DNA of 64,000 bases from an uncultured Poribacteria bacterium (GTDB taxonomy: Bacteria; Poribacteria; WGA-4E; PCPOR2b): the NCBI GenBank assembly GCA_958296125.1, contig OY282444.1, positions 434,001 through 498,000 on the forward strand, written 5' to 3'. Below, one piece after another: positions 27,722 to 49,181 of this stretch. Every line of letters starts with the position of its first letter. Position 1 is the first letter of the stretch. A program made the position numbers and the translations under genes. A model generated the notes under the pieces. It saw nothing but the letters and a program-made list of their open reading frames with translations. It was not told where the DNA came from and did no database searches.

Positions 27722-27743
27722 ACCCGACAGGGTAGATTTTAAT

Positions 27744-30700: not shown

Positions 30701-31088
30701 CGAGATTGAACGGATCGGCATGGAAACCACGATGCGTTACGAGTGTGAACAAGGACGCATACCCGAAGATGTTTCCGCTGAGAATCTCGGCTTTGATGTC
30801 CGTTCAACCGATACAGCAGGGGTGAAGCGGTATATCGAAGTCAAAGCGAGATCAGAGCTTGGGCCAGTAACTTTAACACAAAACGAGTGGTTCAAAGCCA
30901 AACAGTTCAGATCGGACTATTTCCTTTATGTTGTCCTCAACGCTGCGACACATCCCGATCTCCATATTATTCAGAATCCAGCGGAGCAAACACAGCCAGC
31001 AGAAAGGATTGAAGCGCGGTATCTGATCTCTTTGGGCGAAATTCGGGAAAGAGGAGCGGCGTATTCTAGCGATAGCCAGGGTTCGTAG
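27744..31088 (+). CDS. SNF2-family helicase with C-terminal DUF3883 nuclease-like domain (BrxHII/DrmD-like)
   Basis: The ATG at 27744 ([10 protein letters not shown]) avoids overlap with the previous gene; the protein is 1114 residues. The helicase core has Walker A DDPGAGKT (about 122-129), DEAH (about 223-226) and '[21 protein letters not shown]' in the second lobe, cut by a charged coiled-coil insertion (about 370-470). The last 120 residues are a DUF3883/NOV_C-type domain: '[11 protein letters not shown]' then 'YIEVKARS' supplies the D...E-x-K signature of PD-(D/E)xK nucleases. COG0553-type helicases of this shape occur in BREX type 3 and DISARM. It begins the defence island. Confidence 0.92.
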   Translation: [1114 protein letters not shown]

Positions 31089-31113
31089 TGGTGCGTTTAT
31101 TGCGCGGCACCAC
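31088..31113 (+). other. Hairpin directly after the helicase gene
   Basis: GTGGTGC (31088-31094) and GCACCAC (31107-31113) form a 7-bp stem over a 12-nt loop, starting at the last base of the stop codon. No T-run follows, so it is not a standard terminator. It lies 28 bp upstream of the left direct repeat. Confidence 0.5.
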
Positions 31114-31141
31114 GAGCGATAAATAGCACGACCACAAACCA

Positions 31142-31173
31142 AATGCGTAAATCCTATGATGAAAGCAAATATC
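31142..31173. repeat. Left copy of 32-bp direct repeat flanking the PARIS-like pair
   Basis: This sequence (AATGCGTAAATCCTATGATG and 12 more bases) matches 33383-33414 at 30 of 32 positions. It holds the first six codons of the DUF2281 gene (Met-Met-Lys-Ala-Asn-Ile), after which the frame ends at TGA (31177-31179). It reads as a remnant or target duplication left by insertion of the two genes between the copies. Confidence 0.9.
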
Positions 31174-31179
31174 GTATGA
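31156..31179 (+). pseudogene. Truncated start of the DUF2281 gene
   Basis: ATGATGAAAGCAAATATC is followed by GTA and TGA, giving a 7-codon frame identical in its first six residues to the intact DUF2281 protein at 33397. It is not expected to be functional; it marks where the operon was interrupted. Confidence 0.7.
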
Positions 31180-31219
31180 GTGCCAGAGGTTTTATTTCCA
31201 AACAGAGGGAGATAAGGTG

Positions 31220-32551
31220 ATGAACAGCTATTTTATTGAATCCTTTAAGATAACCAAGTTGTGGGGTTATCGAGACATTGACCTAAATTTTAACAAGGAT
31301 GTGAATATACTGATAGGCCCAAATGCTTCCGGTAAAACCACTATTTTGAACCTCCTTCATTCTATCTTAACGTTTGATTTACGAAGTGTCTTAGACGTTA
31401 ATTTTGACCAAGCAGTGATTAAGTTGAGGAGTTTCAAAGGCAGGTTTGAACGCACCATTAAAGTTGACGCTGCTAATATGAAACTCAGTATAGGACGGCA
31501 AAAAATTGACATCAATCTGATCCCTATCCCTGATCGAAGATTCCCCGGATCCTACATGTCCCTTGAAGAAGCTAACATGATTAGTGGAGCGGCAATTCGA
31601 GGGGCTTTCAGAGAGAGAATAAGACTACAGGAACTTTATAAGAAAGTACATAAGGAATTAAAGGAATTAGCTGCCTTGGTTCCTATTGTTTGGCTCCCCG
31701 TCAGTCGTCGTTTACCTGTAACAGAGGATGAGGAAGAACGATATACAAGAACAGATCCTATAGAATCGGTAGACTCACGGCTTGATGAATTGTTAGATGG
31801 GCTTTCTGACTATCACTCTGGCTTAAACGCACAACTTTCTAAACGTTATAAGGAGTTTGAGCAGCAGGTTTTATCGGTGATACTTTATAGTAAAGACGAC
31901 GATCAACTTGAGTGGCTGCCCGCTTCAGTGCTAACAGAAGCGGAAAAAGATCAATTAATGAGAGCTTTTGAGGCTGCTGGGCTTTTAAACGAACAAATGC
32001 AAAAGAGAATTGATGAGCATTTCGCTGCAGCAAAGGACGCACTGGAACGGAGGCGCGAAAGTGAAAACGTTGATTTGGCTTTGAAGGATATCTTTGTGCT
32101 TCCGCTTATCGGTCGAACGCAAGCTATGGTGAAATATGCCGATGAACTTGAAAAAGATAGAGAACGTATTTTTGCATCCTTACAACTTTATGAAGAAACC
32201 GTTAATTCATTTTTGAATGAAAAATCCGTTAAGGTTGATGACAGTGGTAAGTTAAAAATTGAATCTTCTTCACTATCGGAATTGAATCTGCCAGAATTGA
32301 ATCCGCGCCTCCTTTCTTCGGGTGAAAAACAGATTTTGATTTTACTAAGCCAAGCCCTTTTGAGGGTTGATGATCCGGTGGTTTATATCGCAGATGAACC
32401 AGAGCTGTCGCTTCATGTTTCTTGGCAGGAAAAGCTTTTGGAGTCTTTGGTAAAGCTTGGTGGACAAATACAGGTAATTGTTGCAACGCATTCCCCCGAT
32501 ATTGTTGGGAAATTTATGGATAACGTCGTAGATTTGGGGAGGAAAAACTAA
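31220..32551 (+). CDS. ariA: AAA-family ATPase, AriA-like component of a PARIS-type defence pair
   Basis: A 443-residue ABC/SMC-like ATPase of the AAA_15/AAA_21 type. Walker A is GPNASGKTT (about 33-41), the signature LSSGEKQIL (about 364), Walker B YIADEPELSLH (about 390-400) and the switch His in ATHSPDIV. Between them is a helical region, as in OLD-like and AriA ATPases. It overlaps by one base (TAATG) with a DUF4435 gene, the exact order of PARIS, in which AriA forms a scaffold that holds AriB until an anti-restriction protein appears. It is more AT-rich than the helicase and methylase genes. A generic OLD-like ATPase is the alternative. Confidence 0.8.
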   Translation: MNSYFIESFKITKLWGYRDIDLNFNKDVNILIGPNASGKTTILNLLHSILTFDLRSVLDVNFDQAVIKLRSFKGRFERTIKVDAANMKLSIGRQKIDINLIPIPDRRFPGSYMSLEEANMISGAAIRGAFRERIRLQELYKKVHKELKELAALVPIVWLPVSRRLPVTEDEEERYTRTDPIESVDSRLDELLDGLSDYHSGLNAQLSKRYKEFEQQVLSVILYSKDDDQLEWLPASVLTEAEKDQLMRAFEAAGLLNEQMQKRIDEHFAAAKDALERRRESENVDLALKDIFVLPLIGRTQAMVKYADELEKDRERIFASLQLYEETVNSFLNEKSVKVDDSGKLKIESSSLSELNLPELNPRLLSSGEKQILILLSQALLRVDDPVVYIADEPELSLHVSWQEKLLESLVKLGGQIQVIVATHSPDIVGKFMDNVVDLGRKN

Positions 32552-33384
32552 TGTCGTTTTCCCGAACCGACTCGGGGTCAGCAGCAGAGTATTTGTTCTA
32601 TGAAGAAATTCTTGTTTATGTCGAGGGTTATACGGATATCCTTTTCTATGACACAGTGCTTCAAAACTATAATTGCCGCATAAAAGCAAAAAATGGAAGA
32701 GAGGAGTGCGAGAAAGCAGCGGCAATTCTTGTAGAAGGTGACAATCCCTATGTTGTTATTCTGGATGGAGATTATGAGATTTTAGAGCGCACTCGAAGTG
32801 AACATAGACGAATTATTCTGCTTCATCGACATTCATTTGAAAACTATCTTTTTGAGGAAAAGCCAATAAAGCAGTTTTGCAGGGACCGCACTCATATAGA
32901 AGATAGCTTAGAAAAACTACCCAGCAAGTTTAAGACAGTCGTTGAAGATACTGAACTAAAATTTAAGGAGTTAATCGTATTGGACGTAGCGCATCAGCGG
33001 TCATCCACCGGCTATGATGTGCTTCCCAACAAGCCAGGCCGATTTTTAAAGCCAGGGAAGAGCATAAAATTCCGAGATGATGAAATACGACAAAGATATG
33101 CGGAAGCAGTTCAGGGCATTGACAGCCAAAGCATTGAGGCTGCGAGAACCTTGGTTGAAAAATTTTTAAGAAAGCACCGTTTCATTGACTTACTTCCCGG
33201 ACACTTCGCCTTTGGTATTATGAGGCGTTTGATAATTCATAAGATAGACAGACCTATTTCAGATGAAAATGTTAGAGTACCTCTTTCAAGAGGAGTGTGG
33301 AGACTGGTGGAAACTGACGATCATAATAGTTTGAAAAGGCGATTACGCCGCGCTGTTCGGGAAGCCCAACAGATCCGAGGGTAA
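32551..33384 (+). CDS. ariB: DUF4435 TOPRIM-like protein, AriB-like effector of a PARIS-type pair
   Basis: A 277-residue DUF4435 protein. The TOPRIM-like motif set is visible: 'YVEGYTDILFYD' with Glu25, 'VVILDGDYEI' with Asp72 and Asp74, and 'HRHSFENYLFE' (about 92-102), the hallmark of DUF4435. In PARIS, AriB is the released nuclease that stops translation (tRNA cleavage in the studied E. coli system) once AriA senses a phage anti-restriction protein. The start overlaps the ariA-like stop. Its own stop codon lies at the edge of the right direct repeat. Other DUF4435 partners of ATPases exist, so the PARIS label needs phylogeny. Confidence 0.8.
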   Translation: MSFSRTDSGSAAEYLFYEEILVYVEGYTDILFYDTVLQNYNCRIKAKNGREECEKAAAILVEGDNPYVVILDGDYEILERTRSEHRRIILLHRHSFENYLFEEKPIKQFCRDRTHIEDSLEKLPSKFKTVVEDTELKFKELIVLDVAHQRSSTGYDVLPNKPGRFLKPGKSIKFRDDEIRQRYAEAVQGIDSQSIEAARTLVEKFLRKHRFIDLLPGHFAFGIMRRLIIHKIDRPISDENVRVPLSRGVWRLVETDDHNSLKRRLRRAVREAQQIRG

Positions 33385-33414
33385 TGTGTAAATCCTATGA
33401 TGAAAGCGAATATC
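33383..33414. repeat. Right copy of the 32-bp direct repeat
   Basis: This copy starts inside the ariB-like stop codon and runs into the sixth codon of the intact DUF2281 gene. It differs from the left copy at two positions. Removing one copy with everything between would join the helicase gene to the DUF2281-methylase-DUF499 genes without a break. Confidence 0.9.
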
Positions 33415-33663
33415 ATTGAAAAATTCAATCAACTGCCACCTGATCTCCAGGAAAAGGTGATCAAGTATATAGAGTCCCTGCTAGCCCAAGCGGAATTGCG
33501 GCGAAATAAGAAACTGCAATTCAATTGGATTGGCGGCTTAAAAGAATATCGGGACCAGTATACCGCCCTTGAGCTGCAGAAAGAAGCGTTAAACTGGCGG
33601 GAGAAATCAACGCGCAGTAAAACAGATAGAAAACAAAAGGAGCCTGTCAAAGGACTAAAATGA
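33397..33663 (+). CDS. DUF2281-type small protein
   Basis: An 88-residue protein of two parts: 'IIEKFNQLPPDLQEKVIKYIESLL' is the helical domain of DUF2281, a fold frequent among antitoxin-like proteins, and 'FNWIGGLKEYRDQYTALELQKEALNW' is the second half often seen with it; a basic tail follows. The stop overlaps the methylase start (ATGA), so the two are translationally coupled. It may control or assist the methylase, or be an antitoxin relic; this is inference. No toxin gene lies beside it. Confidence 0.75.
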   Translation: MMKANIIEKFNQLPPDLQEKVIKYIESLLAQAELRRNKKLQFNWIGGLKEYRDQYTALELQKEALNWREKSTRSKTDRKQKEPVKGLK

Positions 33664-36356
33664 AACGCCTTATTGAAGAAACCTTCCCCGCCAAAGAGGT
33701 CAGCGAGGAAGCCGCCCACGAGAAAAATATACGACACGGGCACATCTCCACGCTCCATATCTGGTGGGCGCGAAAACCGCTTGCGTCTTCACGCTCCACT
33801 GCTTACGCCGCCCTGATCCCCCCAACGGAGAACACCGAGGCGTGGAACCGCAAACGGGGTTTTATTGAGGACCTATCGAAATGGGATAACTCCCTGAATC
33901 CCCACCTCATTGAACGGGCAAGGCAGGACATCCTTGATGCCAATGGCGGCGTGCCCCCGAAGGTGCTCGATCCCTTTGGGGGGGGTGGGTCGATTCCGCT
34001 GGAGGCTCTTCGGCTTGGGTGTGAAACTTATTCCAACGACCTCAATCCCGTCGCTGTCCTGATTCAGAAGTGCACGCTTGAATACCCACAGAAATACGGT
34101 AGACCGACGGAGGGTGTCACTAATGGACCACTCTTTGGGGAAACTACCGAAAATTCCCTGCTCGAAGATGTCAAAAAATGGGGAGCGTGGATCCTTGCGG
34201 AGGCGAAAAAAGAACTGGAGCGTTTTTATCCCCAAGAGAAGGACGGTTCCATCCCAATCGGCTATATTTGGGCGCGGACAATACCGTGCCAGAATCCGTC
34301 CTGTAGGACTGAAATTCCGCTTATGCGTCAATTCTGGCTGGCGAGGAAGGCGAGAAAGAAGGTTGCCCTTTATCCTTTCGCTGAAAAGGGGCGGGTGAAT
34401 TTTAAGATCGTCGGCGACGGGTATGCACCGATGCCGGGCGGTTTTGATCCCACCAAGGGCACCGTCTCGCGCGCTGTAGCGGTGTGCCCGCTCTGCGGTG
34501 GAACCGTGGAAGCAAAGTTGACGCGCAAATTGTTTCAGGAGGGTAAAGCAGGGGAGCGGCTAGTCGCTGTTGTAACACACACGCCGGACATACCAGGCAA
34601 GCGTTATCGTGTCAAGCGTTATCGTGTGGCAACGGATGCCGACCTTGCTGTCTTTCGAGAAGCCGAGGTGTGCCTTACCGAAAAGCGGGAGAAGTTGACG
34701 TTAGAATGGGGGATGGATGCGGTGCCTGATGAACCTCTGCCACCGAAAGGCACATTAGGTTTTCGAGTCCAAGGCTATGGTATACTGAAATGGGGCGAAC
34801 TCTTCAATACAAGGCAGAAATTGGCGTTGATTACGTTTCTGGAGAAGGTGAAAGCAGTATATCAAAAGATGCTGGCAGAAGAAGTAGATGCGGAGTATGC
34901 GAAGGCCGTGATGAGTTACTTGTGTTTAATTTTAAGCCGTCATTCAAGTTATAATGCGACTTTGTGTTGGTGGGAACCCTTGGGGGAAAGAAGCTTCAAT
35001 GTTTTTGGCCTGCAGGCACTTCCTATGGTTTTTGATTACTCAGAGCAGAATCCTTATGGTATTTTGACAGGGCATTGGTCAAGTCAAGTTGAGATTACCT
35101 CCGAAATTATTTCACATCTTAGTTCAACCCTTTTCCTACAAAGTGCTACTGTTACCCAATCTTCAGCTACTAATCTACCTCATCCCGACAACTTCTTTGA
35201 TGCCGTTTTCACCGATCCGCCATACTACGACAACGTGCCGTATTCCTATCTCTCCGATTTCTTCTACGTTTGGCTCAAGCGCACGTTGGCTGATGTCTAT
35301 CCCGAACTCTTCTCCACACCGTTAACACCTAAGAACAACGAGATTGTCGCCTATTCGCACGGCGCAGGTGGTTTTGAGGCAGGGAAGCGGTTCTTTGAGG
35401 AGTCGCTCAAGCGGTCTTTTCAAGAAATCCACCGCGTATTGAAACTGAACGGCATTGCCATTATTGTCTATGCACACAAATCTGCCGAAGGCTGGGAAAC
35501 GTTGATCAACTCTCTCCTTGATTCGGGCCTGATTATGACCGGTGCGTGGCCACTTGATACAGAGATGAAAACGCGTCTCCGTGCTCAAGAAGCCGCCGCC
35601 CTTGCATCCTCCATCTACATCGTCGCCCGAAAAATGGAACGCGCCCCCACTGGCTTCTATAATGAAGTCAAATCGGAGTTGACAACGCATCTTAATACCA
35701 AACTCCATCGACTGTGGCAAGAGGGCCTCGGTGGGGCGGACTTCTTCATCGCCGCTATCGGTTCCGCTATTGAGGTTTTCGGCAAATACGAAAAGGTGAT
35801 GGATCTTGAAGGGGAGATTATCCGTGCGGATCGGCTGCTTGACGATGTGCGGGAGATTGCCACCGATTACGCAGTGCGACAGATTCTGCGCAATGGATTT
35901 GCCGGTGAAATTTCCGACCTCACCCGCTTTTACGTGCTTTGGCGGTGGGAATACAAGGAGACGCGGGTCCCTTTTGATGAAGCGCGGAAGTTGGCACAGT
36001 CCTGTGGGGTTGACCTCGCCCAAGAGTGGGGTGGAAAGAGCGTTATTGTCAAAGAGAAGGCGTTTATTCGCGTCCTCGGTCCACAGCTCCGAAAGGTAGA
36101 CGACCTTGAAAACGCCGAAGAATTGATTGACGTATTACACCATGTGCTGTTGTTATGGGAACAGAGTCAGCGGGATGAAATGCTTCGTATTCTCGCACAG
36201 AGCGGCTATGGAGATAGCGATGCGTTCTATCGCGTGGCACAAGCCATCTCTGAGACGCTGTCTATTGAGAGCCGGGAGAAGCAGTTGTTGGACGGTTTCC
36301 TCGCCGGTCGTGAAAAGGTCAGAGGCGAGGTGAGACAGGGGAGGTTGTTTCATTAG
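33660..36356 (+). CDS. pglXI: DUF1156 adenine-specific DNA methyltransferase (PglXI-like)
   Basis: An 898-residue COG1743 methyltransferase. The N-terminal 'HGHISTLHIWWARKPLASSRS' is the DUF1156 signature; the AdoMet loop is DPFGGGGSIPLEAL (about 104-117); the catalytic motif is DPPYYD (from residue 519). Cysteine pairs (C-x4-C near residue 220 and CPLCGG near 279) suggest a zinc ribbon. In BREX type 3 this protein methylates host DNA as the self mark. A 15-bp tandem duplication encodes KRYRV twice (34599-34628). The stretch at about 34830-35190, just before DPPY, is more AT-rich than the rest. An own ribosome site is lacking; it is coupled to DUF2281. Confidence 0.93.
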   Translation: MKRLIEETFPAKEVSEEAAHEKNIRHGHISTLHIWWARKPLASSRSTAYAALIPPTENTEAWNRKRGFIEDLSKWDNSLNPHLIERARQDILDANGGVPPKVLDPFGGGGSIPLEALRLGCETYSNDLNPVAVLIQKCTLEYPQKYGRPTEGVTNGPLFGETTENSLLEDVKKWGAWILAEAKKELERFYPQEKDGSIPIGYIWARTIPCQNPSCRTEIPLMRQFWLARKARKKVALYPFAEKGRVNFKIVGDGYAPMPGGFDPTKGTVSRAVAVCPLCGGTVEAKLTRKLFQEGKAGERLVAVVTHTPDIPGKRYRVKRYRVATDADLAVFREAEVCLTEKREKLTLEWGMDAVPDEPLPPKGTLGFRVQGYGILKWGELFNTRQKLALITFLEKVKAVYQKMLAEEVDAEYAKAVMSYLCLILSRHSSYNATLCWWEPLGERSFNVFGLQALPMVFDYSEQNPYGILTGHWSSQVEITSEIISHLSSTLFLQSATVTQSSATNLPHPDNFFDAVFTDPPYYDNVPYSYLSDFFYVWLKRTLADVYPELFSTPLTPKNNEIVAYSHGAGGFEAGKRFFEESLKRSFQEIHRVLKLNGIAIIVYAHKSAEGWETLINSLLDSGLIMTGAWPLDTEMKTRLRAQEAAALASSIYIVARKMERAPTGFYNEVKSELTTHLNTKLHRLWQEGLGGADFFIAAIGSAIEVFGKYEKVMDLEGEIIRADRLLDDVREIATDYAVRQILRNGFAGEISDLTRFYVLWRWEYKETRVPFDEARKLAQSCGVDLAQEWGGKSVIVKEKAFIRVLGPQLRKVDDLENAEELIDVLHHVLLLWEQSQRDEMLRILAQSGYGDSDAFYRVAQAISETLSIESREKQLLDGFLAGREKVRGEVRQGRLFH

Positions 36357-36393
36357 GTTTAAGCATTTTATTTAAGGATAAGGAGAAAAGCGA

Positions 36394-38928
36394 GTGATTC
36401 CATTTCACACAATTGCTGTGCCTCACCATGACATCTTAGCAGGCAAAATCAAGATGGAAGTATTTGCGGCAGATCTGTGGGAAGCGTTCAAAGGCACGGC
36501 ACCAGACGAATATAAGGACCCCACACAATTCTTCCAGAAAACCTACCAGACCGATGGACTCAAAAACCTGCTTTCAATTGTTGAAGAGCGGCTAAATGGG
36601 CGCGGCGGCGATCCGGTGATTCAGCTCCAGACCCCCTTCGGGGGCGGTAAAACCCACGCGCTGATTGCGATGTATCACAAAGCCAACGAGTGGAACGCGC
36701 AAAAAGTGGGGCTTGTTGGGACACCGATGGGGCCATCCGATACGTTATGGGGGGGATTGGAAAAACAGTTAACGGGCAAGGTTGCACATTTTGATGGGTT
36801 GACTTCGCCCGGTCGGGATAGACTCCAGCAAATACTTTCACAAAACCAACCCGTGCTCATCCTGATGGACGAGGTGCTGGAATATATGACCAAAGCCGCT
36901 GGCGTTCCGGTAGGGGACAGCACACTTGCATCACAGACGCTTGCCTTTATGCAGGAGCTGACCGAAGCCGCTGCCATTTTAGAACGGGTCGCCCTGGTCA
37001 TCACCCTGCCATCGGGGTATGACCAAGGGGCGGCACAGCTATTGAGCCAACTCAGACATGTTGCCGGGCGGGTGAAGAAGCTTTATACACCTGTGCATGA
37101 TCATGAAATTGCTCAGGTCATCAGACGACGGCTTTTTTCACAGATTGATAGCAAGGGCGCGGGTGGAGTGATTCGGGATTTTATGGATTACGCCGACAGG
37201 GAATCCATTCTGCCGCCCGGGACAGAGCCCTCAGAATACCGAAAACGGTTTGAAGCCGCTTATCCGTTTCAACCCGAAGTGATTGAGGTGCTCTATCAGC
37301 GGTGGGGCAGTTTCCCTAGTTTCCAACGGACACGGGGTGTGTTGCGGCTCCTGTCGTTCGTAATTCATTCCCTTAAACAGAGTGCAATTCCCTATATCAG
37401 TCTGGCAGATTTTGATCTGAGCGTTCAGGGAATTCGACAAGAGTTGTTAGAGCACATCGGTCTCGAATATGAAAGCATCATCTCCGCAGACATTACAGGT
37501 GAAAACGCCGGTGCGAAAAAGGTTGATGTCAGTCTCGGAGCTGCCTATAATGGATTGAAGTTAGGCAGCCGAGCTGCGACGACCGTTTTTCTTTACTCAT
37601 TTTCGGGCGGGACCGAGAACGGGGCGAATCTCGAAGAAATTAAACGAAGCGCGACGACTACGGGGCATCCGTCAAGCGTCCTCACGGAAGCAGTTGAGGG
37701 GTTGCAGGAAAAGCTGTTTTACCTGCAGCACGAAAGCGGAAGAGCTCATTTCACCAACCAGCCTAATCTTAACAGTATTCTGCTAACCCGAATGGAGAAT
37801 ATCAACGAACGGGCAATTAATGAGTTTGAGGAAGCAGAACTGAAAAAGAACCTCTCTGGAGGAAAACTTAAGACCTTCGTTTGGCCCAAGGATGGATCGG
37901 ACATTCCGGACAGCACCGATCTGAAGCTAATTATCCTTAAAGAACGTGACGACCGCCTGATGAAAGATATACTGGAAATGAAGGGGAAGGCACCTCGGGT
38001 GAACCGAAACACGCTTTTCTTTCTGACTCCATTGGACCATGAGGCGGCTGGGTTTTATCGTCAACTGCGGAAGATCATCGCCTACGAGGGTATCGGGAAA
38101 GACAAAACACTGAACCTCTCTGCCAAACAACAGCGGGAGGTTCGGACGGAGTTGAGAAAGGCGACAGCTGAACTCAATGATGGGTTTCGTCGATATTACC
38201 GAACCGTGTTCATTCCGGCAAAAAATAATCTCAAAGCGAGCGATTTGGGACTGCCAACCTACGGTGTGTCGAAGAAACTGGACGAAGGCGTATATGACAA
38301 ATTGCGTTTAGACGGGGAGATTCTTGAAAGCGTTCATCCATTGGTGGTTAAGGAAAAGTATCTCGAAACCGACGAATCTGTTTCCACGGAACAACTCTAT
38401 CAGTTGGGTGCGAAGACACCGGGCGAGACACGGGTTGTCGGTCAAGGGTGGGAGTTGGGAATTTGTGACGGGGTGGAACAGGGATTATTTGGTCTCGGTG
38501 AGCTGGACGCTGGGAAACCGGTCTGCCGATACTTCAAGGAGCGTCCATCCTCAATTGCCTTTTCTGGGTCTGAAGTAATTATCCAAGAGGATATCTGTAT
38601 CGCCCAGGAAGAACCAACACCAGAACCGCCGGGGCCTATCCCTCGCCCACCGGAGCCTGTCGATCCTCCCGGTGGAGATGGCGAAGGGGAAATCGAAGAT
38701 CCACCAGCCCCGGAGCCACCACCAGACGGACGCGACACGGTTCGACTGAAATTTACAATTCCGAAAGGGAAGGTATCAGGGCTTATGGGCGTGATGAACC
38801 TGCTGCAATCAAATTTCGACAACCTTCAAATTGAGCTGCAGGCGACAGGGGGTCAGATGTCAGATCAGGATTATGAAGATAAAATCAAAGAGACGTTTAT
38901 GCAATTAGGAATCGATCTGGAGGAATAG
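36394..38928 (+). CDS. DUF499 AAA+ ATPase (BrxC/PglY-like)
   Basis: An 844-residue protein starting at GTG after AAGGAGA. 'QTPFGGGKTHALIAMYH' (about 79-95) is the Walker A of DUF499, and 'VLILMDEVLEYM' (about 154-165) Walker B. A proline-rich linker (about 739-779) leads to a small C-terminal domain ('RLKFTIPKGKVSGLMGVMNLL'). DUF499 ATPases are the central factor (BrxC or PglY) of BREX and also accompany DUF1156 methylases in related archaeal and bacterial defence sets. It is the last gene of the island; no PglZ, BrxA, BrxB or BrxL follows. Confidence 0.93.
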   Translation: MIPFHTIAVPHHDILAGKIKMEVFAADLWEAFKGTAPDEYKDPTQFFQKTYQTDGLKNLLSIVEERLNGRGGDPVIQLQTPFGGGKTHALIAMYHKANEWNAQKVGLVGTPMGPSDTLWGGLEKQLTGKVAHFDGLTSPGRDRLQQILSQNQPVLILMDEVLEYMTKAAGVPVGDSTLASQTLAFMQELTEAAAILERVALVITLPSGYDQGAAQLLSQLRHVAGRVKKLYTPVHDHEIAQVIRRRLFSQIDSKGAGGVIRDFMDYADRESILPPGTEPSEYRKRFEAAYPFQPEVIEVLYQRWGSFPSFQRTRGVLRLLSFVIHSLKQSAIPYISLADFDLSVQGIRQELLEHIGLEYESIISADITGENAGAKKVDVSLGAAYNGLKLGSRAATTVFLYSFSGGTENGANLEEIKRSATTTGHPSSVLTEAVEGLQEKLFYLQHESGRAHFTNQPNLNSILLTRMENINERAINEFEEAELKKNLSGGKLKTFVWPKDGSDIPDSTDLKLIILKERDDRLMKDILEMKGKAPRVNRNTLFFLTPLDHEAAGFYRQLRKIIAYEGIGKDKTLNLSAKQQREVRTELRKATAELNDGFRRYYRTVFIPAKNNLKASDLGLPTYGVSKKLDEGVYDKLRLDGEILESVHPLVVKEKYLETDESVSTEQLYQLGAKTPGETRVVGQGWELGICDGVEQGLFGLGELDAGKPVCRYFKERPSSIAFSGSEVIIQEDICIAQEEPTPEPPGPIPRPPEPVDPPGGDGEGEIEDPPAPEPPPDGRDTVRLKFTIPKGKVSGLMGVMNLLQSNFDNLQIELQATGGQMSDQDYEDKIKETFMQLGIDLEE

Positions 38929-40432: not shown

Positions 40433-42253
40433 ATGGCTACCATCAAGAACCCATCCGAAAAGAAGGATTCGAGAAATTCCCTTGAGGCGATGCAAGATCG
40501 GACCAATCTATCCGCACCGTCCTCTGAGCGGGTTTCTTCCGAAAGAAAGATTCGTGAGCTAACATTCACCATCGAGTCGTTAGAGAGTGAAATTGATGAT
40601 TTAAGAAGACGCTTAAACGCTGCGCCTTCCGACGATGTAGAAGTTCGCCTCTACGAAATGACCCGCGACTTAATGCACGCACACCGCAGAAATCGAAAGT
40701 TGACTAGCACCCTTCAAGAAGCGAAAGAGCGGCTGGAGCAGTTGAAGGAGAAGGTTGAACAACTCAGTGCCCCACCGAACAACTACGGCGTTTACCTTCA
40801 ATCAAACAATGATGGAACGCTGGATATCGACCTTGGTGGCAAAAGGTGGCGTGTCAATGCAGATCCGGAGATTAACACCGATCAGCTCCAAAAAGGTCAA
40901 GAGGTCATTGTCAACGGCGTGATGAACGTTGTGAGCGTGAGGGAATTTGAGCGGCAAGGTGAAGTGGTCAAGATTAAGGAGATGCTTGACGATAACCGCG
41001 TGCTTGTGAATCTACGGGCCGATGAGGAGCGAGTTGTAGAAATATCGGATCCGCTTAACGAGGAGGAACTTAAGTTTGGGGATAACGTCATGCTGAACCC
41101 GATCACCGGGATGGTTATGGAGAAACTGCCCAAACTTGAAGTTGAAGACCTGCTGCTCGAAGAGGTGCCCGACATTAAATATTCGGATATTGGTGGATTA
41201 AATGAGCAGATTGAGGCGATTCGAGACGCTATTGAGACCCCTTACCTCTATCCCAATGAATACAAGGAATTCCAGTTAAAGCCGCCGAAAGGGGTGCTCC
41301 TCTATGGCCCCCCCGGCTGCGGAAAAACTTTAATCGCTAAGGCAGTCGCCAATAGTCTAGCATCCAGAGTTCGAGAACGAACGGGTAGAGACAATGTAGA
41401 AAGCTATTTTATCAATATCAAGGGGCCGGAGCTACTCAATAAGTATGTTGGCGAAACGGAGCGAAAGATTCGAGAAGTCTTCCAAAAAGCCAAGGACAAA
41501 TCCAAAGAGGGGGTTCCGGTCATCATCTTCTTTGATGAGATGGATTCGCTTTTCCGATCCAGGGGCATGGGGATTTCATCCGATATGGAGTCAACGGTGG
41601 TGCCTCAATTCCTCGCTGAAATCGATGGTGTCGAGGGGCTCAGGGATGTGGTTGTCATTGGTGCCAGCAACCGCCAAGATCTCCTGGATCCCGCCGTTTT
41701 ACGGCCCGGTCGATTGGACATCAAGATTAAAGTTGACCGCCCTGAAGCTGAAGGCGCGAAGGATATTTTCGCCATCTACCTGACCCCTGACCTGCCGATT
41801 GACCCTTCAGTGTTGGAAGCGTTCACTGGTGATCGGGAAAAAGCGGTTCAAGGGCTCGTGGATCAGGCAATCGAGAAGATGTATGCAACCACCGATGAAA
41901 ACAAATTCATTGAGGTGACTTACAATCGTGGGGAACGTGAGACGCTCTACTTCAAGGATTTTGCAAGTGGTGCGATGATTGAAAACATCGTGGATCGTGC
42001 CAAGAAGATGGCAATCAAACGGCTGATCGATTCTGAAGGGAAAGAGAAGGGCATCACCCTTGATGACCTCGATAAGGCGATCCAAGAAGAATATAAAGAG
42101 AATGAAGATCTGCCCAACACCACCAACCCGGACGATTGGGCGAAGATATCGGGGCGGAAAGGCGATAGAATCGTCAATATTAAGGCATTGACCCACGAAC
42201 CGGAGCGGAAAAGGCGGGATGTAAGAACCGTCAAAGGTGGCGCTTACCTTTAA
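40433..42253 (+). CDS. arc: Proteasome-associated ATPase (ARC/Mpa)
   Basis: A 606-residue hexameric unfoldase that captures Pup-tagged proteins and feeds the 20S core. Order of parts: disordered N-terminus; coiled coil (about 35-115) that binds Pup; two OB folds (about 120-245); AAA+ domain with GPPGCGKT (about 291-298) and FFDEMDS (Walker B). The C-terminus KGGAYL has the penultimate Tyr needed for docking into the proteasome alpha ring (Mpa ends QYL). The start has a purine-rich ribosome site. It heads the cluster; dop follows after 19 bp. Confidence 0.96.
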   Translation: MATIKNPSEKKDSRNSLEAMQDRTNLSAPSSERVSSERKIRELTFTIESLESEIDDLRRRLNAAPSDDVEVRLYEMTRDLMHAHRRNRKLTSTLQEAKERLEQLKEKVEQLSAPPNNYGVYLQSNNDGTLDIDLGGKRWRVNADPEINTDQLQKGQEVIVNGVMNVVSVREFERQGEVVKIKEMLDDNRVLVNLRADEERVVEISDPLNEEELKFGDNVMLNPITGMVMEKLPKLEVEDLLLEEVPDIKYSDIGGLNEQIEAIRDAIETPYLYPNEYKEFQLKPPKGVLLYGPPGCGKTLIAKAVANSLASRVRERTGRDNVESYFINIKGPELLNKYVGETERKIREVFQKAKDKSKEGVPVIIFFDEMDSLFRSRGMGISSDMESTVVPQFLAEIDGVEGLRDVVVIGASNRQDLLDPAVLRPGRLDIKIKVDRPEAEGAKDIFAIYLTPDLPIDPSVLEAFTGDREKAVQGLVDQAIEKMYATTDENKFIEVTYNRGERETLYFKDFASGAMIENIVDRAKKMAIKRLIDSEGKEKGITLDDLDKAIQEEYKENEDLPNTTNPDDWAKISGRKGDRIVNIKALTHEPERKRRDVRTVKGGAYL

Positions 42254-42272
42254 GGTTGAATAACAGCAGATT

Positions 42273-43763
42273 ATGATCATACCAACGATTATGGGGACCG
42301 AAACCGAATATGGGATTTCGGTCAAAAATGCGCGAGATCCAGACCCTGTTGCGGCCTCAACGCTTGTCGTCAATATTTATAAAGACCGTGGGATCAAGCG
42401 AATCATTTGGGACTATGATCAGGAGAGTCCGTTGATGGACGCTAGAGGGTTCGTCTCTGAAGGGGAAACTGACATTCCGGATCAGGAAAATAATAGCCTC
42501 ATCAATGATGTCCTCGCTAATGGTGGACGCTACTATGTTGATCACGCCCATCCGGAGTATTGTACCCCGGAATGCACAAATGCGCGCGATTTGGTCAAAT
42601 ATGAGAAGGCGGGGGAATTGATATTAGATTTGAGTCGTCTGGCTGCCCAAGAGTTGTTGCCCACGAATCAAGAGATTATTATTTACAAGAACAACAGCGA
42701 TTATAAAGGTCACAGCTACGGGGCGCATGAAAATTATCTGATGTCTCGGAGTGTCCCCTTCCAAGATATCGTCGATGGATTAACACCTTTCCTCGTGACG
42801 CGACAGCCCATCACGGGAAGTGGTAAGGTTGGTGCTGAAAATGGCGCAGCGGAAACGGATTATCAAATCTCTCAGCGTGCTGATTTTTTCGAGACTGAAG
42901 TTGGATTGAGCACAATGGTGGCGCGTCCAATTATCAATACGCGAGATGAACCCCACGCCGATGAGATGTTATACCGTCGGCTGCACGTCATTGTCGGCGA
43001 TTCCAACATGTCTGAGTTTTCTATCTATTTAAAGGTGGGAATTACGTCCATTGTGCTGCAACTCATCGAAAAGGGGGTTGTGACGGATAAGTTCAGACTC
43101 TCCGACCCTGTTTCGGCGATTCAAACGGTGTCGCGCGATCTCTCCTGTCAAGAAGCTTTAGCTTTAGAAGATGGGCGGAAATGGACACCCATTGAGATTC
43201 AGCGCGAATATCTTGAGTTGGCTCACAAACATATTCCCACAGCGGATTTGTCTGAGGTGGTGCGCGATGTGATGACGACATGGGATTTTGTTCTCGACCG
43301 CCTCGACGAGGATCCGATGAGCCTGGATCGACACCTCGATTGGGTGATTAAGAAACGACTGATTGATGCCTACCGGCGCCGTCACCGTTTAGCCCATTCA
43401 GATCACCAGGTTCGGATGTTAGATTTGCAATATCACGACCTCCGCCCAAATAAGGGGCTCTACGCGAGGTTGCTGAAAAATGGACGTATTGAACGCCTCC
43501 TCAAACAGGAGGAGATTGTTCACGCGATTAACAATCCACCCGTTGATACACGTGCCTATTTTCGGGGTATGTGTTTACAAAAATTTCCCAACGAGATTCA
43601 CAGCGCAAGCTGGAATTCAATGATTTTTTGTACTGACGATTCTTCTTTAGATAAAATTTTAATGGATCGCCCGCACTTCGGGACGCAGGAGATGACCGGC
43701 GATCTGTTGAGAGACTGCACGGCTGCAGAACTTGTTCAAGCTATTCTCACATCCAACCATTAG
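42273..43763 (+). CDS. dop: Depupylase / Pup deamidase family protein (Dop)
   Basis: A 496-residue glutamine-synthetase-fold enzyme. 'IMGTETEYGIS' is the Dop form of the ATP/Mg site, and 'WDYDQESPLMDARGF' the Dop loop that PafA lacks. 'VDHAHPEY' carries the catalytic Asp region and 'INTRDEPHAD' the Pup/ATP-binding strand. Dop removes Pup from substrates and, where Pup ends in Gln, deamidates it. Here Pup already ends in Glu, so only the depupylase function should matter. It precedes pup by 13 bp. Confidence 0.95.
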   Translation: MIIPTIMGTETEYGISVKNARDPDPVAASTLVVNIYKDRGIKRIIWDYDQESPLMDARGFVSEGETDIPDQENNSLINDVLANGGRYYVDHAHPEYCTPECTNARDLVKYEKAGELILDLSRLAAQELLPTNQEIIIYKNNSDYKGHSYGAHENYLMSRSVPFQDIVDGLTPFLVTRQPITGSGKVGAENGAAETDYQISQRADFFETEVGLSTMVARPIINTRDEPHADEMLYRRLHVIVGDSNMSEFSIYLKVGITSIVLQLIEKGVVTDKFRLSDPVSAIQTVSRDLSCQEALALEDGRKWTPIEIQREYLELAHKHIPTADLSEVVRDVMTTWDFVLDRLDEDPMSLDRHLDWVIKKRLIDAYRRRHRLAHSDHQVRMLDLQYHDLRPNKGLYARLLKNGRIERLLKQEEIVHAINNPPVDTRAYFRGMCLQKFPNEIHSASWNSMIFCTDDSSLDKILMDRPHFGTQEMTGDLLRDCTAAELVQAILTSNH

Positions 43764-43776
43764 AAGGAGAAACAAC

Positions 43777-43974
43777 ATGCCGGCCGAAAAGCAACAGGAC
43801 CAAAGAGACAAACGGACTCAGGATACTGAGGAAGTTCAACCGGATCAGGAAGTCGTAGAGCAGGGCGAAGAGATTAAAGAGGATCTCGATCAACTCCTTG
43901 ATGAAATCGACGAAATCTTGGAAGAAGATTCAGAAGAGTTTGTCGAAAATTACATTCAACGGGGAGGAGAGTAG
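43777..43974 (+). CDS. pup: Prokaryotic ubiquitin-like protein Pup, C-terminal GGE
   Basis: The ATG at 43777 follows GAAGGAGA; an upstream in-frame ATG inside dop is rejected. The 65-residue product is intrinsically disordered and acidic (Gln/Asp/Glu-rich) with a helix-forming centre ('LDQLLDEIDEILEEDSEEF') that would dock on ARC coiled coils, and ends 'ENYIQRGGE'. The C-terminal Glu is the residue PafA joins to substrate lysines. Most actinobacterial Pups are made as GGQ and need Dop; this one is made in ready form. Its stop overlaps the prcB start. Confidence 0.95.
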   Translation: MPAEKQQDQRDKRTQDTEEVQPDQEVVEQGEEIKEDLDQLLDEIDEILEEDSEEFVENYIQRGGE

Positions 43975-44813
43975 TGGTCTTTAGCCGCGCCGATCATAGG
44001 ACTTCCGATTTCCTTGAGGTCTTGCAAAGGGAAAGGCCAGAGCTTCTATCAAGGTTCGGCACACCGCCTCTGCTAGACTCACCCCCTGCAAACTGGAAAG
44101 GGCAGCGTATGCCAACGTCCAGTTTGACGGATCTTTACGATAACCTCCTTGAAGGCACAACCATATTAGCCGCCGTTTACAACGAGGGGGTTATCATCGC
44201 CGGTGATCGCCAGGCAACGGCGGGCTTTCAAGTGGGGGAACGACGTATCCGGAAAGTCTATGAGGTGGATGCCTATTCAGCTATCGCGATTGCTGGTGTC
44301 GCCGGACCGGCCATGGAAATGGCGAAGCTCTTCCAGGTCCAGGTGGAGTTCTATGAAAAAATAGAAGGCTCACCGTTAAGCCTAGAAGGCAAAGCCAATT
44401 CCCTGTCAAACATGGTCAAATCCAATTTGCCGATGGCGTTGCAAGGATTGGTGGTCGTTCCGATTTTCACGGGGTATGACCTCAAACGGAAACAAGGGAG
44501 GATCTTCAAATACGACGCAATAGGGGGGCAATACGAAGAAAGCGAATACTATGCGACCGGATCCGGTGGTAAGGATGCACAAACAACGCTGAAAAAGCTG
44601 TATAGCCCCGATATCTCCCGCGAGGGGGTCCTGAAGATAGTTGTCGAGGCACTCTGGGATGCCGCTGATGAAGATGTGGCTACGGGGGGACCTGATTTTA
44701 TTCGGGAGATTTTCCCGACAATTAAGGTTATTGATTCGACGGGAATCTCAGATATACCGGATTCGGAAACCAAGGCACTCTATACTGAGCTACTTGAAAG
44801 ACTCCATAGCTGA
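43974..44813 (+). CDS. prcB: Proteasome beta subunit (catalytic)
   Basis: The GTG overlaps the pup stop codon by one base and follows GGGGAGGA. The 279-residue precursor has a 61-residue propeptide that is cut at Gly61-Thr62 (LLEG-TTILA), so Thr62 becomes the catalytic N-terminal Thr1. 'VIIAGDRQATAG' contains the Asp17-equivalent, and 'IRKVY' the Lys33-equivalent. Seven such subunits form each inner ring of the 20S core. The propeptide keeps the enzyme silent until assembly. Good match to actinobacterial PrcB. Confidence 0.96.
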   Translation: MVFSRADHRTSDFLEVLQRERPELLSRFGTPPLLDSPPANWKGQRMPTSSLTDLYDNLLEGTTILAAVYNEGVIIAGDRQATAGFQVGERRIRKVYEVDAYSAIAIAGVAGPAMEMAKLFQVQVEFYEKIEGSPLSLEGKANSLSNMVKSNLPMALQGLVVVPIFTGYDLKRKQGRIFKYDAIGGQYEESEYYATGSGGKDAQTTLKKLYSPDISREGVLKIVVEALWDAADEDVATGGPDFIREIFPTIKVIDSTGISDIPDSETKALYTELLERLHS

Positions 44814-44874
44814 AGCTTGGCAATCGGTCATCCGAAAATGCGCCCGTCAATTTAAGGATTTAAGGGAGGAGTAG

Positions 44875-45585
44875 ATGCCCGCACCGTATTACGTGTCGCC
44901 TGAGCAAATCATGCAGGAGAAAGAGGATTTTGCTCGGAAGGGGATCGAGAAGGCGAAAGAGGTTATTGTTCTAGAATACCGAGATGGTATTCTGATGGTT
45001 GCAGAAAATCCGCTGACGACGGTTTTCAAGATTTCGGAAATCTATGATCGTATTGCGCTTGCAGCGACCGGGCTCTATCCGGACTACGAAGCCCTCCGAT
45101 ATGCCGGGATTCAGGGTGCCGAAGTCAAAGGGTTTACCTTCAACCGCGAAGATGTTACGGCGAGATGGCTCGCCAATCAGTATTCACAGCAGATTGGGGC
45201 CATCTATCGCCAACCGGATGCAAAACCGCTTGAGGTGGAGCTGCTCCTCTGCGAAATCCGCGAGGATTCCTCATCGAACAACAGAATCTATCATCTGTCT
45301 TTTGATGGCACGTTTTGGGAAGACAATGAATACACCGTCATTGGCGGGAGAGCCGATGAAATCGCAGGTATCCTTGAAGCTGAGTATAGCGAGGGTTTAG
45401 ATTTGAGCGGTGCTTTGCAGCTCGCGGCAAGGACTTTTGAAACCATTGAAACGGAAGTCGATGAAGTGGATCGATACCAAGTGACGGCTGAGACAATAGA
45501 AGCAGCTGTGCTGGACGAAACCCGAAATCGGCGCAAATTTAAACGTTTGCTTCCCGATGAACTGAGTGAGATTTTGAGCGCATGA
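44875..45585 (+). CDS. prcA: Proteasome alpha subunit
   Basis: A 236-residue 20S alpha subunit. It starts 'PAPYYVSPEQIMQEKEDFARKGIEKA', the H0 helix and gating tail of alpha subunits, and continues with the beta-sandwich ('VIVLEYRDGILMVAENP'). It has no N-terminal Thr and so is not catalytic; its rings gate entry and bind the C-termini of ARC. GGGAGGAG precedes the ATG. The stop overlaps the pafA start (ATGA). Confidence 0.95.
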   Translation: MPAPYYVSPEQIMQEKEDFARKGIEKAKEVIVLEYRDGILMVAENPLTTVFKISEIYDRIALAATGLYPDYEALRYAGIQGAEVKGFTFNREDVTARWLANQYSQQIGAIYRQPDAKPLEVELLLCEIREDSSSNNRIYHLSFDGTFWEDNEYTVIGGRADEIAGILEAEYSEGLDLSGALQLAARTFETIETEVDEVDRYQVTAETIEAAVLDETRNRRKFKRLLPDELSEILSA

Positions 45586-46940
45586 ACCGAAGGATTTATG
45601 GTCTGGAAAACGAATATGGGATTATCTGCACGTCGGATCGGCGAGGCGGGAAAGCACTATCGATCCAAAATGCGGTGATGTATCTCTTTCGGGAGATTAT
45701 TTCTGGACGGATGTATCCGGATGTTTTTCTAGAGAATGGGGCTCGATTTTATCAGGACATCGGTTGCCACCCCGAATATGCGACCCCTGAATGCGATGAT
45801 GTGACCGACCTCGTCACCCACGACAAAGCCGGTGAACGGATCATCGAAAGGCTTTCTATTGCCGCAGAGCGAAAGATGCAAGTCGATGGATTTCTTGGAC
45901 GGATTTCGGTCTTCAAGAATAATACCGATACGCCCGGCAACACATACGGCTGCCATGAGAACTATCTGATGGATCGTCGCGTGAGTTTTCGCCAACTTGC
46001 CTCGCAACTGATTCCCTTCTTTGTGACGCGTCAAGTCTTTGCCGGGGCGGGGAAGGTCAAATCCACCAACCGAGGCGGATACGCAATCTCCCAACGGGCG
46101 CAGCATATTCGTGAAGAAATTTCAATTGCAACGACAACAGCGCGAGGCATCATCAACACGCGCGATGAGCCACATGCGGACCGAGAAAAATATCGCCGCC
46201 TGCACGTCATCGTCGGTGACTCCAACATGTCGGAGTTTGCTACCTACCTCAAGATCGGCACGACAGCAATCGTCTTGCGGATGATCGAAGATAACTTTAT
46301 TAAGCAGCGGCTCGCGTTACGCGATTCTGTCCGAGCGATTCAGCAGATCTCGGAGGATATCACCTGCACCCGGAAAATCGAATTGGAAAACGGCAAGCGG
46401 CTGTCAGGTGTCGAGATGCAGTGGGAGTATCTGGAATGTGCCAAGCAGTATTTCGAGCAAGCCGAATCGGATCCAATCACCGATCAGATTATGGCGCGAT
46501 GGGAATATGTGCTGACCTGTTTGGAAACCGATCCGATGCAGCTGGATCGAGAACTCGATTGGGTCATCAAGAAGAAATTGATTGAGACCTATGTAGCGAG
46601 CCGACAACTCAAGTGGAATTCCGCCAAGGTTATGATGCTCGATCTACAGTACCACAATATTCGGCCGGAGTTTGGGTTGTATTACAAGCTCGAAAAAGAG
46701 GGGCTCGTTGAACGCATTGCCACCGATGACGCGGTTGAACATGCGATGCATCACCCCCCTGAAACGACCCGTGCGAAGTTCCGCGGCCGTTTTGTAAAGC
46801 TGGCAAACGAGCGAAAGATTCTTTGTGGCGTTAATTGGAGCTATATCCAACTTTACGAACCCTACCAAAAGCTCTTCCTTTCCACGGATCCCTTGCAAGC
46901 CGAATATGAAGAAGCCAGCCGGATGATTTATTCGATTTAG
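45582..46940 (+). CDS. pafA: Pup-protein ligase PafA
   Basis: A 452-residue paralogue of Dop without the Dop loop. 'RIYGLENEYGI' is the ATP/Mg site (Thr of the usual ETE replaced by Asn), 'CHPEYATPECDDVTDLVTHDKAGE' holds the catalytic Asp segment and 'INTRDEPHAD' the shared strand; 'YGCHENYLM' is typical of PafA. It joins the Pup C-terminal Glu gamma-carboxylate to substrate lysines with ATP. The ATGA overlap with prcA shows one transcript for the whole cluster. Confidence 0.95.
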   Translation: MNRRIYGLENEYGIICTSDRRGGKALSIQNAVMYLFREIISGRMYPDVFLENGARFYQDIGCHPEYATPECDDVTDLVTHDKAGERIIERLSIAAERKMQVDGFLGRISVFKNNTDTPGNTYGCHENYLMDRRVSFRQLASQLIPFFVTRQVFAGAGKVKSTNRGGYAISQRAQHIREEISIATTTARGIINTRDEPHADREKYRRLHVIVGDSNMSEFATYLKIGTTAIVLRMIEDNFIKQRLALRDSVRAIQQISEDITCTRKIELENGKRLSGVEMQWEYLECAKQYFEQAESDPITDQIMARWEYVLTCLETDPMQLDRELDWVIKKKLIETYVASRQLKWNSAKVMMLDLQYHNIRPEFGLYYKLEKEGLVERIATDDAVEHAMHHPPETTRAKFRGRFVKLANERKILCGVNWSYIQLYEPYQKLFLSTDPLQAEYEEASRMIYSI

Positions 46941-47114: not shown

Positions 47115-47534
47115 ATGCCCCCTAGGTATACAGTAAAAATAGGAAGATGGTTCTTACTCGTCGCCGGACTCATGTTTTGTATCTTTGGATGTGGAAGTGC
47201 TATCAAGGAGCTGGGCTTGGTATTTGACGACCCTGCATCTGCTGGTAGACCGAGTCCCTCTTTTAACACCGATATTGCGCCAATCCTTACCAATCGATGC
47301 GCCACTGCAGAGTGCCATGTCGCTGGAGGACCGCACGATATCGATCTCCGCACGTATGACAGTCTCAAAGCGGGGGGAGATGATGGGGCTATCGTTATCG
47401 CAGGCGATGCGAGAGAGAGCGAAATAGTCGAAGAAATTGCGGAAGGCAAGATGCCCCCGGAGGGACCACCTTTGGAGGCGGCACAAATCCAACTTATTAT
47501 CGATTGGATTAATGAAGGTGCCAATAACAACTAA
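47115..47534 (+). CDS. Cytochrome-c-like lipoprotein with a CX4CH site
   Basis: A 139-residue protein with a lipoprotein-type signal (WFLLVAGLMFCIFGC lipobox) and a domain of the kind found at the ends of planctomycete and myxobacterial cytochromes: 'IAPILTNRCATAECHVAGGP', 'IDLRTYDSLKAGG', 'GKMPPEGPPL', 'IQLIIDWINEGA'. The heme-type site is C-x4-C-H in place of CXXCH, a spacing seen in these domains; the distal Met is likely in GKMPP. It probably sits on the outer face of a membrane as a redox or sensing module. GGAGGTGAGG precedes the start. Confidence 0.8.
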   Translation: MPPRYTVKIGRWFLLVAGLMFCIFGCGSAIKELGLVFDDPASAGRPSPSFNTDIAPILTNRCATAECHVAGGPHDIDLRTYDSLKAGGDDGAIVIAGDARESEIVEEIAEGKMPPEGPPLEAAQIQLIIDWINEGANNN

Positions 47535-47680: not shown

Positions 47681-48080
47681 TTCAACTTTTTGTGTTAATC
47701 ACATTACTAATACATTGTCAGATAACTTATGCTGGTGTATTAGGATAAAATCGGTCGAACTTCTGCCGCGCCTGATTGAGACTAAACTGCCAATAAAAAC
47801 TCACCGATGCGTCGGGAAAGACACTGTTTGGAAAGCACAGAGCGTTCAATCTCCACCACATTTAATCCCGACCCCTTTTTCACCGTAGATCTGAGTCGGA
47901 GGATACCATACCGACATCAGAATTGAACACTTGTCTACCAGGGCCCCTATGCTAGTTATGAACTTACACCCCCAAGCTTATTTGGCAGTGGGCTAGCGAA
48001 GCGAGATCCCCACTCAGGGATCGGGAGAGCCTGCTTTATCGGGCAAATGAGCGAATCGCCGGATGCGAGGAGAGAAATTG
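47681..48080. other. Non-coding gap before dnaJ
   Basis: After the terminator this stretch has no convincing gene. It carries GATCCC/GGGATC inverted repeats near 48021-48039 and 'TAGTTATGAACTTACACCCC' near 47950, which resembles a part of the gap at 53000-53140; both look like dispersed repeat remnants. Confidence 0.45.
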
Positions 48081-49181
48081 GTGAGGAAGAAAGACTACTA
48101 TCAAATCCTTGGTGTGAGTCGGAATGCAACCCTCGACGAAATAAAGAAAGCCTATCGAAAAATTGCGATGCGATATCATCCCGACAAAAATCCGGGGGAT
48201 AAACGAGCAGAGGAAAGATTCAAGGAAGCATCGATGGCTTACCAGACATTGAGCGAGCTTAGGCTGCAACACATCGGCGATCAAGCGTCAGGAACGGATA
48301 CAGGAAGTCAAGGAGGTGGAGGCTCTAGACGTTCTGGTGATAGCGACTCCAAAATTAATGACCTCTTCGATGACCTGTTTAGATCCGGATCTCAAACGAA
48401 GCGAAAAACAAAAACAAGGCGAACAGTTAAAGCAAAAGGAATACGGGGTTCCAACATAAGAACCGGTCTAACCCTCCCGTTTACCGAAGCCATGCTGGGA
48501 ACGGAGCGGTCCATCCGTATTCACCGTAACGAGGAGTGCTACAGTTGTGATGGTACAGGTATGCAAAAAGACTCGCCCCAATCAACTTGTCCTAACTGTA
48601 TGGGAAATAGCGAAATCTTCAACCAGTTGCTGCGGGGTGATGCGGCGCACAATAGATTGTGTGAACGCTGCCGAGGAACTGGGGTCCTAATTCACGAACC
48701 GTGTCAGACCTGTCGCGGGACAGGTGCCACCCGCAAGGAGCGCTCGTTACTGGTGAAGATGCCTCCGGGGATTGAGAGTGGAAAATCGTTACGCTTACCC
48801 GGTCAGGGAGAATGTGGTTTACATGGGGGACCTTATGGCGATCTGTTCGTAGATGTTGTTGTCAAGTCACACCCGGTCCTACAGCGCGATGGGTATGATT
48901 TGCGATGTCAGATTCCAGTTGGCTTTGCGATCGCGGCATTGGGCGGAGAAATTTATGTCCCGACGCTTACTGACCCCATCGCATTGAACCTCCCCCGAGG
49001 CACACAGTCCAATCAGACTTTCCGACTAATCGGGCGGGGGATTGAAAAATCTGAAAACGAGAGGGGAGATCTCTTTGTCACTATGGTTATTGAAATCCCT
49101 ACCACCCTGACGAAGAAACAGGAGCAGCTGCTGAAGAAGTATGTCGATTTGGAGAAAAAAACATTCTCACGGAAACCTTGA
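48081..49181 (+). CDS. DnaJ-type co-chaperone with zinc domain
   Basis: The GTG at 48081 sits after GAGGAGAG and gives VRKKDYYQILGV, the usual J-domain start; an ATG 18 bp earlier includes the ribosome site. J domain with HPD ('MRYHPDKNPGD'), a Gly/Ser-rich linker, then four Zn modules (CYSCDGTG, CPNCMGNS, CERCRGTG, CQTCRGTG) and a C-terminal substrate-binding part. It stimulates DnaK ATPase and delivers clients. The second module lacks the final Gly-x-Gly form (MGNS). No dnaK or grpE is adjacent, and the G/F region is Ser/Arg-rich, so it may be a specialised paralogue. Confidence 0.9.
   Translation: MRKKDYYQILGVSRNATLDEIKKAYRKIAMRYHPDKNPGDKRAEERFKEASMAYQTLSELRLQHIGDQASGTDTGSQGGGGSRRSGDSDSKINDLFDDLFRSGSQTKRKTKTRRTVKAKGIRGSNIRTGLTLPFTEAMLGTERSIRIHRNEECYSCDGTGMQKDSPQSTCPNCMGNSEIFNQLLRGDAAHNRLCERCRGTGVLIHEPCQTCRGTGATRKERSLLVKMPPGIESGKSLRLPGQGECGLHGGPYGDLFVDVVVKSHPVLQRDGYDLRCQIPVGFAIAALGGEIYVPTLTDPIALNLPRGTQSNQTFRLIGRGIEKSENERGDLFVTMVIEIPTTLTKKQEQLLKKYVDLEKKTFSRKP

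Follow-up and report, generated by a model that had tools for sequence, protein, structure and literature searches.

The stretch of DNA analyzed here (the window; positions 434001-498000 of the host contig, 64,000 nt) derives from an uncultured Poribacteria bacterium and carries a Pup-proteasome cluster. The cluster occupies window positions 40433-46940 (all gene coordinates refer to the window unless another locus is named) and consists of six consecutive open reading frames on the + strand:

40433..42253, + strand: ARC/Mpa, hexameric AAA+ proteasomal ATPase, 606 amino acids (aa); TIGR03689
42273..43763, + strand: Dop, Pup depupylase/deamidase, 496 aa; TIGR03688
43777..43974, + strand: Pup, 65 aa, ending in ...FVENYIQRGGE; PF05639 and TIGR03687
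43974..44813, + strand: PrcB, catalytic proteasome beta subunit, with a GTG start and a propeptide of 61 aa; TIGR03690
44875..45585, + strand: PrcA, proteasome alpha subunit; TIGR03691
45582..46940, + strand: PafA, Pup ligase, 452 aa; TIGR03686, PF03136 and tree position

An earlier sequence-only reading of this DNA had recognized the row ARC-dop-pup-prcB-prcA-pafA, and all six genes were indeed found in place, each matching a curated family. The curated cut-offs were passed by five of the six proteins: ARC (727 bits with TIGR03689, cut-off 504.75), Dop (572 bits with TIGR03688, cut-off 492), Pup (63.5 bits with PF05639, cut-off 27, and 48.8 bits with TIGR03687, cut-off 41.45), PrcB (293 bits with TIGR03690, cut-off 192) and PrcA (257 bits with TIGR03691, cut-off 139). 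The sixth, PafA, reached 532 bits with TIGR03686, which is 19 bits below the NCBIfam cut-off of 551 and is the one score that speaks against the assignment of the complete set. PafA was assigned by its tree position (clade PafA_Pup, support 100); the Dop model gives this protein only 425 bits, and PF03136, which describes the glutamine-synthetase fold, gives 524 bits. With scores of this order, chance is no serious alternative.

Further comparisons agree with these assignments. ARC contains the OB domains PF16450/PF17758 and the AAA domain, as determined by profile, and is 55% identical to Mpa of Mycobacterium tuberculosis (Mtb). Dop, whose best relative in the PDB is Dop of Acidothermus cellulolyticus (4b0r, 500 bits), was placed in the clade Dop_Pup of the Dop/PafA tree (support 97), while PrcA matched 1q5q_A with 183 bits. 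The 65-aa modifier can be aligned to Mtb Pup (3m91) and matched the Pup models only, with no match to the UBact models PF20513/NF033388. The window cluster is of the Pup type, not of the UBact type.

The genes are closely packed, although the overlapping starts and stops described in the sequence-only reading apply to only two of the five junctions: pup and prcB share 1 nt, and prcA and pafA share 4 nt. Between ARC and dop there are 19 nt, between dop and pup 13 nt, and between prcB and prcA 61 nt. A sequence resembling a ribosome-binding site, AGAAGGAG, lies upstream of pup. An Rfam search of the window gave no match, and promoter and terminator scans of the cluster region returned fewer sites than were found in shuffled sequences.

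The residues on which the function of such systems depends are intact, as had been claimed from the sequence alone. In the alignment with the actinobacterial beta subunit 1q5q_H, Thr62 of PrcB falls on the first residue of the mature chain, and Asp17 and Lys33 (numbered from Thr62) are both present. ARC carries a Walker A (GPPGCGKT) and a Walker B (IIFFDE) motif as well as the C-terminal tail GGAYL, the Pup C-terminus is QRGGE, and the N-terminal gate segment of PrcA is PYYVSPEQ. The alignment revealed the Dop-loop (WDYDQESPLMDARGF...) in Dop and its absence from PafA.

By analogy with the actinobacterial enzymes, PafA would attach Pup, through its C-terminal glutamate, to lysines on the targets and Dop would take Pup off again, while the ARC hexamer would bind Pup and unfold the target. 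The ...YL tails of ARC would then dock, so that the target could be threaded into a 20S barrel formed by the PrcA and PrcB subunits encoded next to it. Since the window Pup ends in GGE, it should need no deamidation; among other Poribacteria the last three residues of Pup are GGE or GGQ, and therefore, if the actinobacterial model applies, the deamidase step would be needed in some species of the phylum and not in that of the window. Pupylation might also serve a mainly non-degradative role here, as in corynebacteria, where it is found without a proteasome (proteasome-lacking members are described in PMC3511204). However, prcB and prcA are intact, including their catalytic residues, and lie within the operon between pup and pafA, which makes such a role very unlikely.

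The sequence-only reading had suspected a Poribacteria-like host, and this was borne out. The closest named relatives of ARC are from Candidatus Poribacteria metagenome-assembled genomes (MAGs; 67-72% identity), the others among the matches listed reaching 51-59%. Within the phylum (85 genomes), ARC scored above the cut-off in 79 and Pup in 78; G001 and G002, the two that do not belong to the class, have neither Pup nor UBact. The only point in favour of an actinobacterial fragment fused to a poribacterial contig is that many MAGs are fragmented. The host genome, in contrast, is a single contig of 5,156,246 bases (completeness 98.85), and the G+C content stays at 0.485-0.524 over 34-52 kb of the window without a step, so that both objections anticipated by the sequence-only reading, binning to an actinobacterium and a join near 39-47 kb, fail. 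Orthologues are moreover present in 78 of the 85 independent genomes, and the position of ARC in the tree is not actinobacterial. On these grounds a chimera or actinobacterial contamination was rejected, its probability being practically nil, and the cluster is native to the phylum.

A separate question is whether the phylum itself obtained the system from an actinobacterium. Transfer from Actinobacteria is favoured in the literature for non-actinobacterial proteasomes (PMC3511204, PMC5666114), and Acidimicrobiales are the proposed donors of the Leptospirillum system (PMC3511204). Were the window cluster a recent import of this kind, it would tell us little about Poribacteria. In our ARC tree (51 rows) an acidobacterial MAG (L078) does nest among acidimicrobial rows inside the Actinobacteria clade (100/99). 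The Poribacteria, however, form one clade (98/97) outside it, and the approximately unbiased (AU) test rejected the union of Poribacteria and acidimicrobial-like rows in a single clade (p-AU 0.0004). Almost every genome of the class has the Pup system, whose tree tracks the host families; this points to a vertical history within the phylum. Recent import from an actinobacterium is thus largely refuted, and we consider it most improbable. An ancient transfer that predates the ancestor of the class is possible, because the order of the deepest branches on the Pup side of the ARC tree is weak (80/66 and 78/63).

The genome of the window was searched, by family and by region, for members of the Pup-ligase and proteasome families. 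It contains four Pup-ligase-family genes rather than two, and five proteasome-family genes, namely two alpha/beta pairs and one HslV-like gene. These reveal a second cluster, which lies outside the window and was thus hidden from the sequence-only reading. It is situated between radC and era, approx. 4 Mb from the first (locus L041, 7901-14521, corresponding to G000:C1:4481900-4488520), in which the genes follow the same order as in the window:

L041 7901-9655: ARC2
L041 9668-11188: Dop2
L041 11224-11421: UBact, ending in RQRTGE; NF033388 and PF20513
L041 11425-12234: PrcB2
L041 12224-13018: PrcA2
L041 13061-14521: PafA2

The modifier of this cluster matched NF033388 with 73.7 bits (cut-off 35) and PF20513 with 67.5 bits (cut-off 27.8). 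By eye, the catalytic residues Thr, Asp and Lys are all retained in PrcB2. PrcA2 fits the alpha-subunit model poorly (71 bits against a cut-off of 139), but the best matches of its predicted fold (predicted local distance difference test score, pLDDT, of 90.4) among solved structures are to the Mtb proteasome (E 9e-17). The two ATPases, ARC1 and ARC2, are only 39% identical. As judged from its sequence, the second cluster is a full UBact system, with an ATPase, a Dop/PafA pair and 20S subunits of its own.

A recent duplication of the cluster within Poribacteria was considered as the source of this second system and was rejected by the trees, because the UBact-type proteins of Poribacteria group with the UBact-type proteins of Nitrospirota and not with the Pup-type proteins of Poribacteria. 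We conclude with high confidence that the Pup-proteasome operon of the window is canonical and intact and has long been resident in its poribacterial host, which also encodes a separate UBact system.

The remaining proteasome-family gene (G000:C1:120337-120852, 180 codons), which lies outside both clusters, was taken as HslV. Three genomes of one poribacterial family (f7) have their UBact cluster divided between two contigs (L042, L044 and L049 with L176, L178 and L177), with ARC2-Dop2 on one and UBact-PrcB2-PrcA2-PafA2 on the other. At a further locus of the same family (L181, G006:C3), Dop2 and PafA2 are present as several broken reading frames, as a result of either decay of the UBact cluster or sequencing errors.

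The joint occurrence of the two modifiers is widespread. In the Poribacteria phylum, Pup was detected in 78 and UBact in 76 of the 85 genomes, and 71 have both. Among 246 Nitrospirota genomes the corresponding numbers are 114, 85 and 78; approx. 39 genomes with both would be expected if the two were independent, a figure that shared ancestry makes a rough yardstick. The genes of both modifiers lie on one chromosome-sized contig in two Nitrospirota genomes (G255, 4.32 Mb; G324, 4.23 Mb) and in two of Poribacteria (G046 and G083). In other groups no UBact was found: it was absent from all 95 genomes of the Methylomirabilota group, 83 of which have Pup, and none of the 296 Actinomycetota genomes had UBact above the cut-off. 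By these counts, UBact does not simply replace Pup, and genomes often retain both. Several genomes of the Methylomirabilota group (G399, G414, G448, G450 and others) contain two or three Pup genes each.

The phylogenies divide the components by system. In the ARC tree the Pup-type and UBact-type proteins are split with full support (100/100) and are grouped by system before they are grouped by host. The Dop/PafA tree likewise contains four groups arranged by system, in which the two UBact enzymes are joined to each other, as are the two Pup enzymes (support 98); a clade of all Dop proteins was not rejected (p-AU 0.17). This arrangement hints that ligase and deligase may have arisen by separate duplications in each system. 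The PrcA/PrcB tree shows four groups by system, with the fewest possible changes.

The ARC tails and the PrcA gate segments differ as well. In all rows inspected but two (one YV and one FF), Pup-type ARC ends in [YF]L, while UBact-type ARC ends in VI, II, AI, IV or IE, and a penultimate Tyr was never seen in the UBact-type rows inspected. This difference holds in two phyla. The gate segments of PrcA are also specific to the system, PYYVSPEQ in the Pup type and EPYRW-EA in the UBact type. From these features we infer that the two systems probably work in parallel, each largely insulated from the other.

There are several points that weigh against such insulation. By eye, the alpha-subunit lysine that receives the ATPase tails is present in both types of PrcA, so that cross-docking is possible; the Pup-type beta subunits do not fall on one side of a branch in the PrcA/PrcB tree; and the basis of the proposal comprises sequence divergence, tails and separate subunits only. 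The homologous subunits share one cytoplasm, and some genomes carry a single modifier gene (e.g. G030 and G024, Pup only). One ATPase or one 20S core could thus serve both tags, or mixed 20S barrels could be formed. This alternative, to which we assign a modest probability, is opposed by the retention of both modifiers in 71 of the 85 genomes (each with a full set of its own parts in those inspected), by the ARC tails and PrcA gates described above, and by the grouping of alpha and beta subunits by system. On balance we lean, with some caution, towards two complete, parallel and insulated ubiquitin-like/proteasome systems per cell in the Poribacteria class and in many Nitrospirota, which would provide orthogonal routes for different substrates and would have been co-retained since before the class diversified.

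Directly upstream of the window cluster (27693-38928) there is a defence region encoding HmaA/HmaB/HmaC-like helicase, methylase and ATPase proteins (671, 427 and 393 bits, respectively), which also includes an AriA/AriB-like (PARIS) pair at 31217-33384. Just downstream of pafA, the gene at 47115-47534 codes for a small protein whose cytochrome c domain is of the planctomycete type (PSCyt1); DnaJ follows at 48063-49181.

The sequence-only reading had proposed that the cluster, given a Poribacteria-like host, adds a lineage to a distribution centred on Actinobacteria and Nitrospirae. The poribacterial host stands, but the range assumed is outdated: Iyer 2008 (PMC2588565) had already listed nitrospirae, verrucomicrobia, deltaproteobacteria and planctomycetes as non-actinobacterial holders of Pup, to which the Methylomirabilota counts given above may be added. 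According to Hecht 2020 (PMC7947786), Pup is conserved in Actinobacteria and Nitrospirae, and occurs sporadically elsewhere following transfer from Actinobacteria. The nearly class-wide presence of Pup in Poribacteria and the non-actinobacterial branch of its ARC weaken the view of sporadic imports. In a 2017 study of Anbu, proteasome subunits of Gram-negative bacteria (armatimonadetes, nitrospirae and verrucomicrobia; PMC5666114) were seen to form a second cluster, which we ourselves identify, for the most part, with the UBact-type set.

Our literature search, which did not extend to the founding paper on UBact, revealed nothing that links Poribacteria with Pup, or Pup and UBact with each other. 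That paper (Lehmann et al. 2017) is said to list several candidate phyla, perhaps with Poribacteria among them.

The window cluster shares with the actinobacterial (Mycobacterium) Pup-proteasome all six parts, the catalytic Thr, the Dop-loop, the ARC YL tail and the GG[EQ] end of Pup, and its gene order recurs in other Poribacteria and in acidimicrobial relatives (e.g. L065 and L094). It differs from the actinobacterial system in the branching of ARC outside Actinobacteria, in the host phylum and in the presence of UBact in the same genome.

The Pup system of Nitrospirota consists of the same parts and, in 78 of 246 genomes, is likewise accompanied by UBact. In those genomes of Nitrospira that were inspected, however, pup is separated from the five remaining genes, whereas in the window it is located between dop and prcB. 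At one Nitrospira locus (L090) the row reads ARC-dop-prcB-prcA-pafA, with dop followed by prcB and no pup in between, and at three Nitrospirota loci (L163, L165 and L175) pup stands alone beside unrelated genes.

The UBact system of Gram-negative bacteria (Lehmann et al. 2017, doi 10.1016/j.bbrc.2017.01.037) has the same architecture and gene order as the window cluster. Its modifier ends in RQRTG[EQ] as opposed to QRGG[EQ] in Pup, its ATPase ends in VI/II/IE, and its enzymes and 20S subunits form groups separate from those of the Pup type. As a kind of system the window cluster is nothing out of the ordinary; what is new is a well-supported member of a known family of systems that is native to Poribacteria. 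The wider interest of the cluster lies in the coexistence of a full Pup and a full UBact system. The presence of both in one genome allows testing whether two ubiquitin-like modifiers send different parts of the proteome to two proteasomes in one bacterium, which is impossible in a Pup-only organism such as Mycobacterium.

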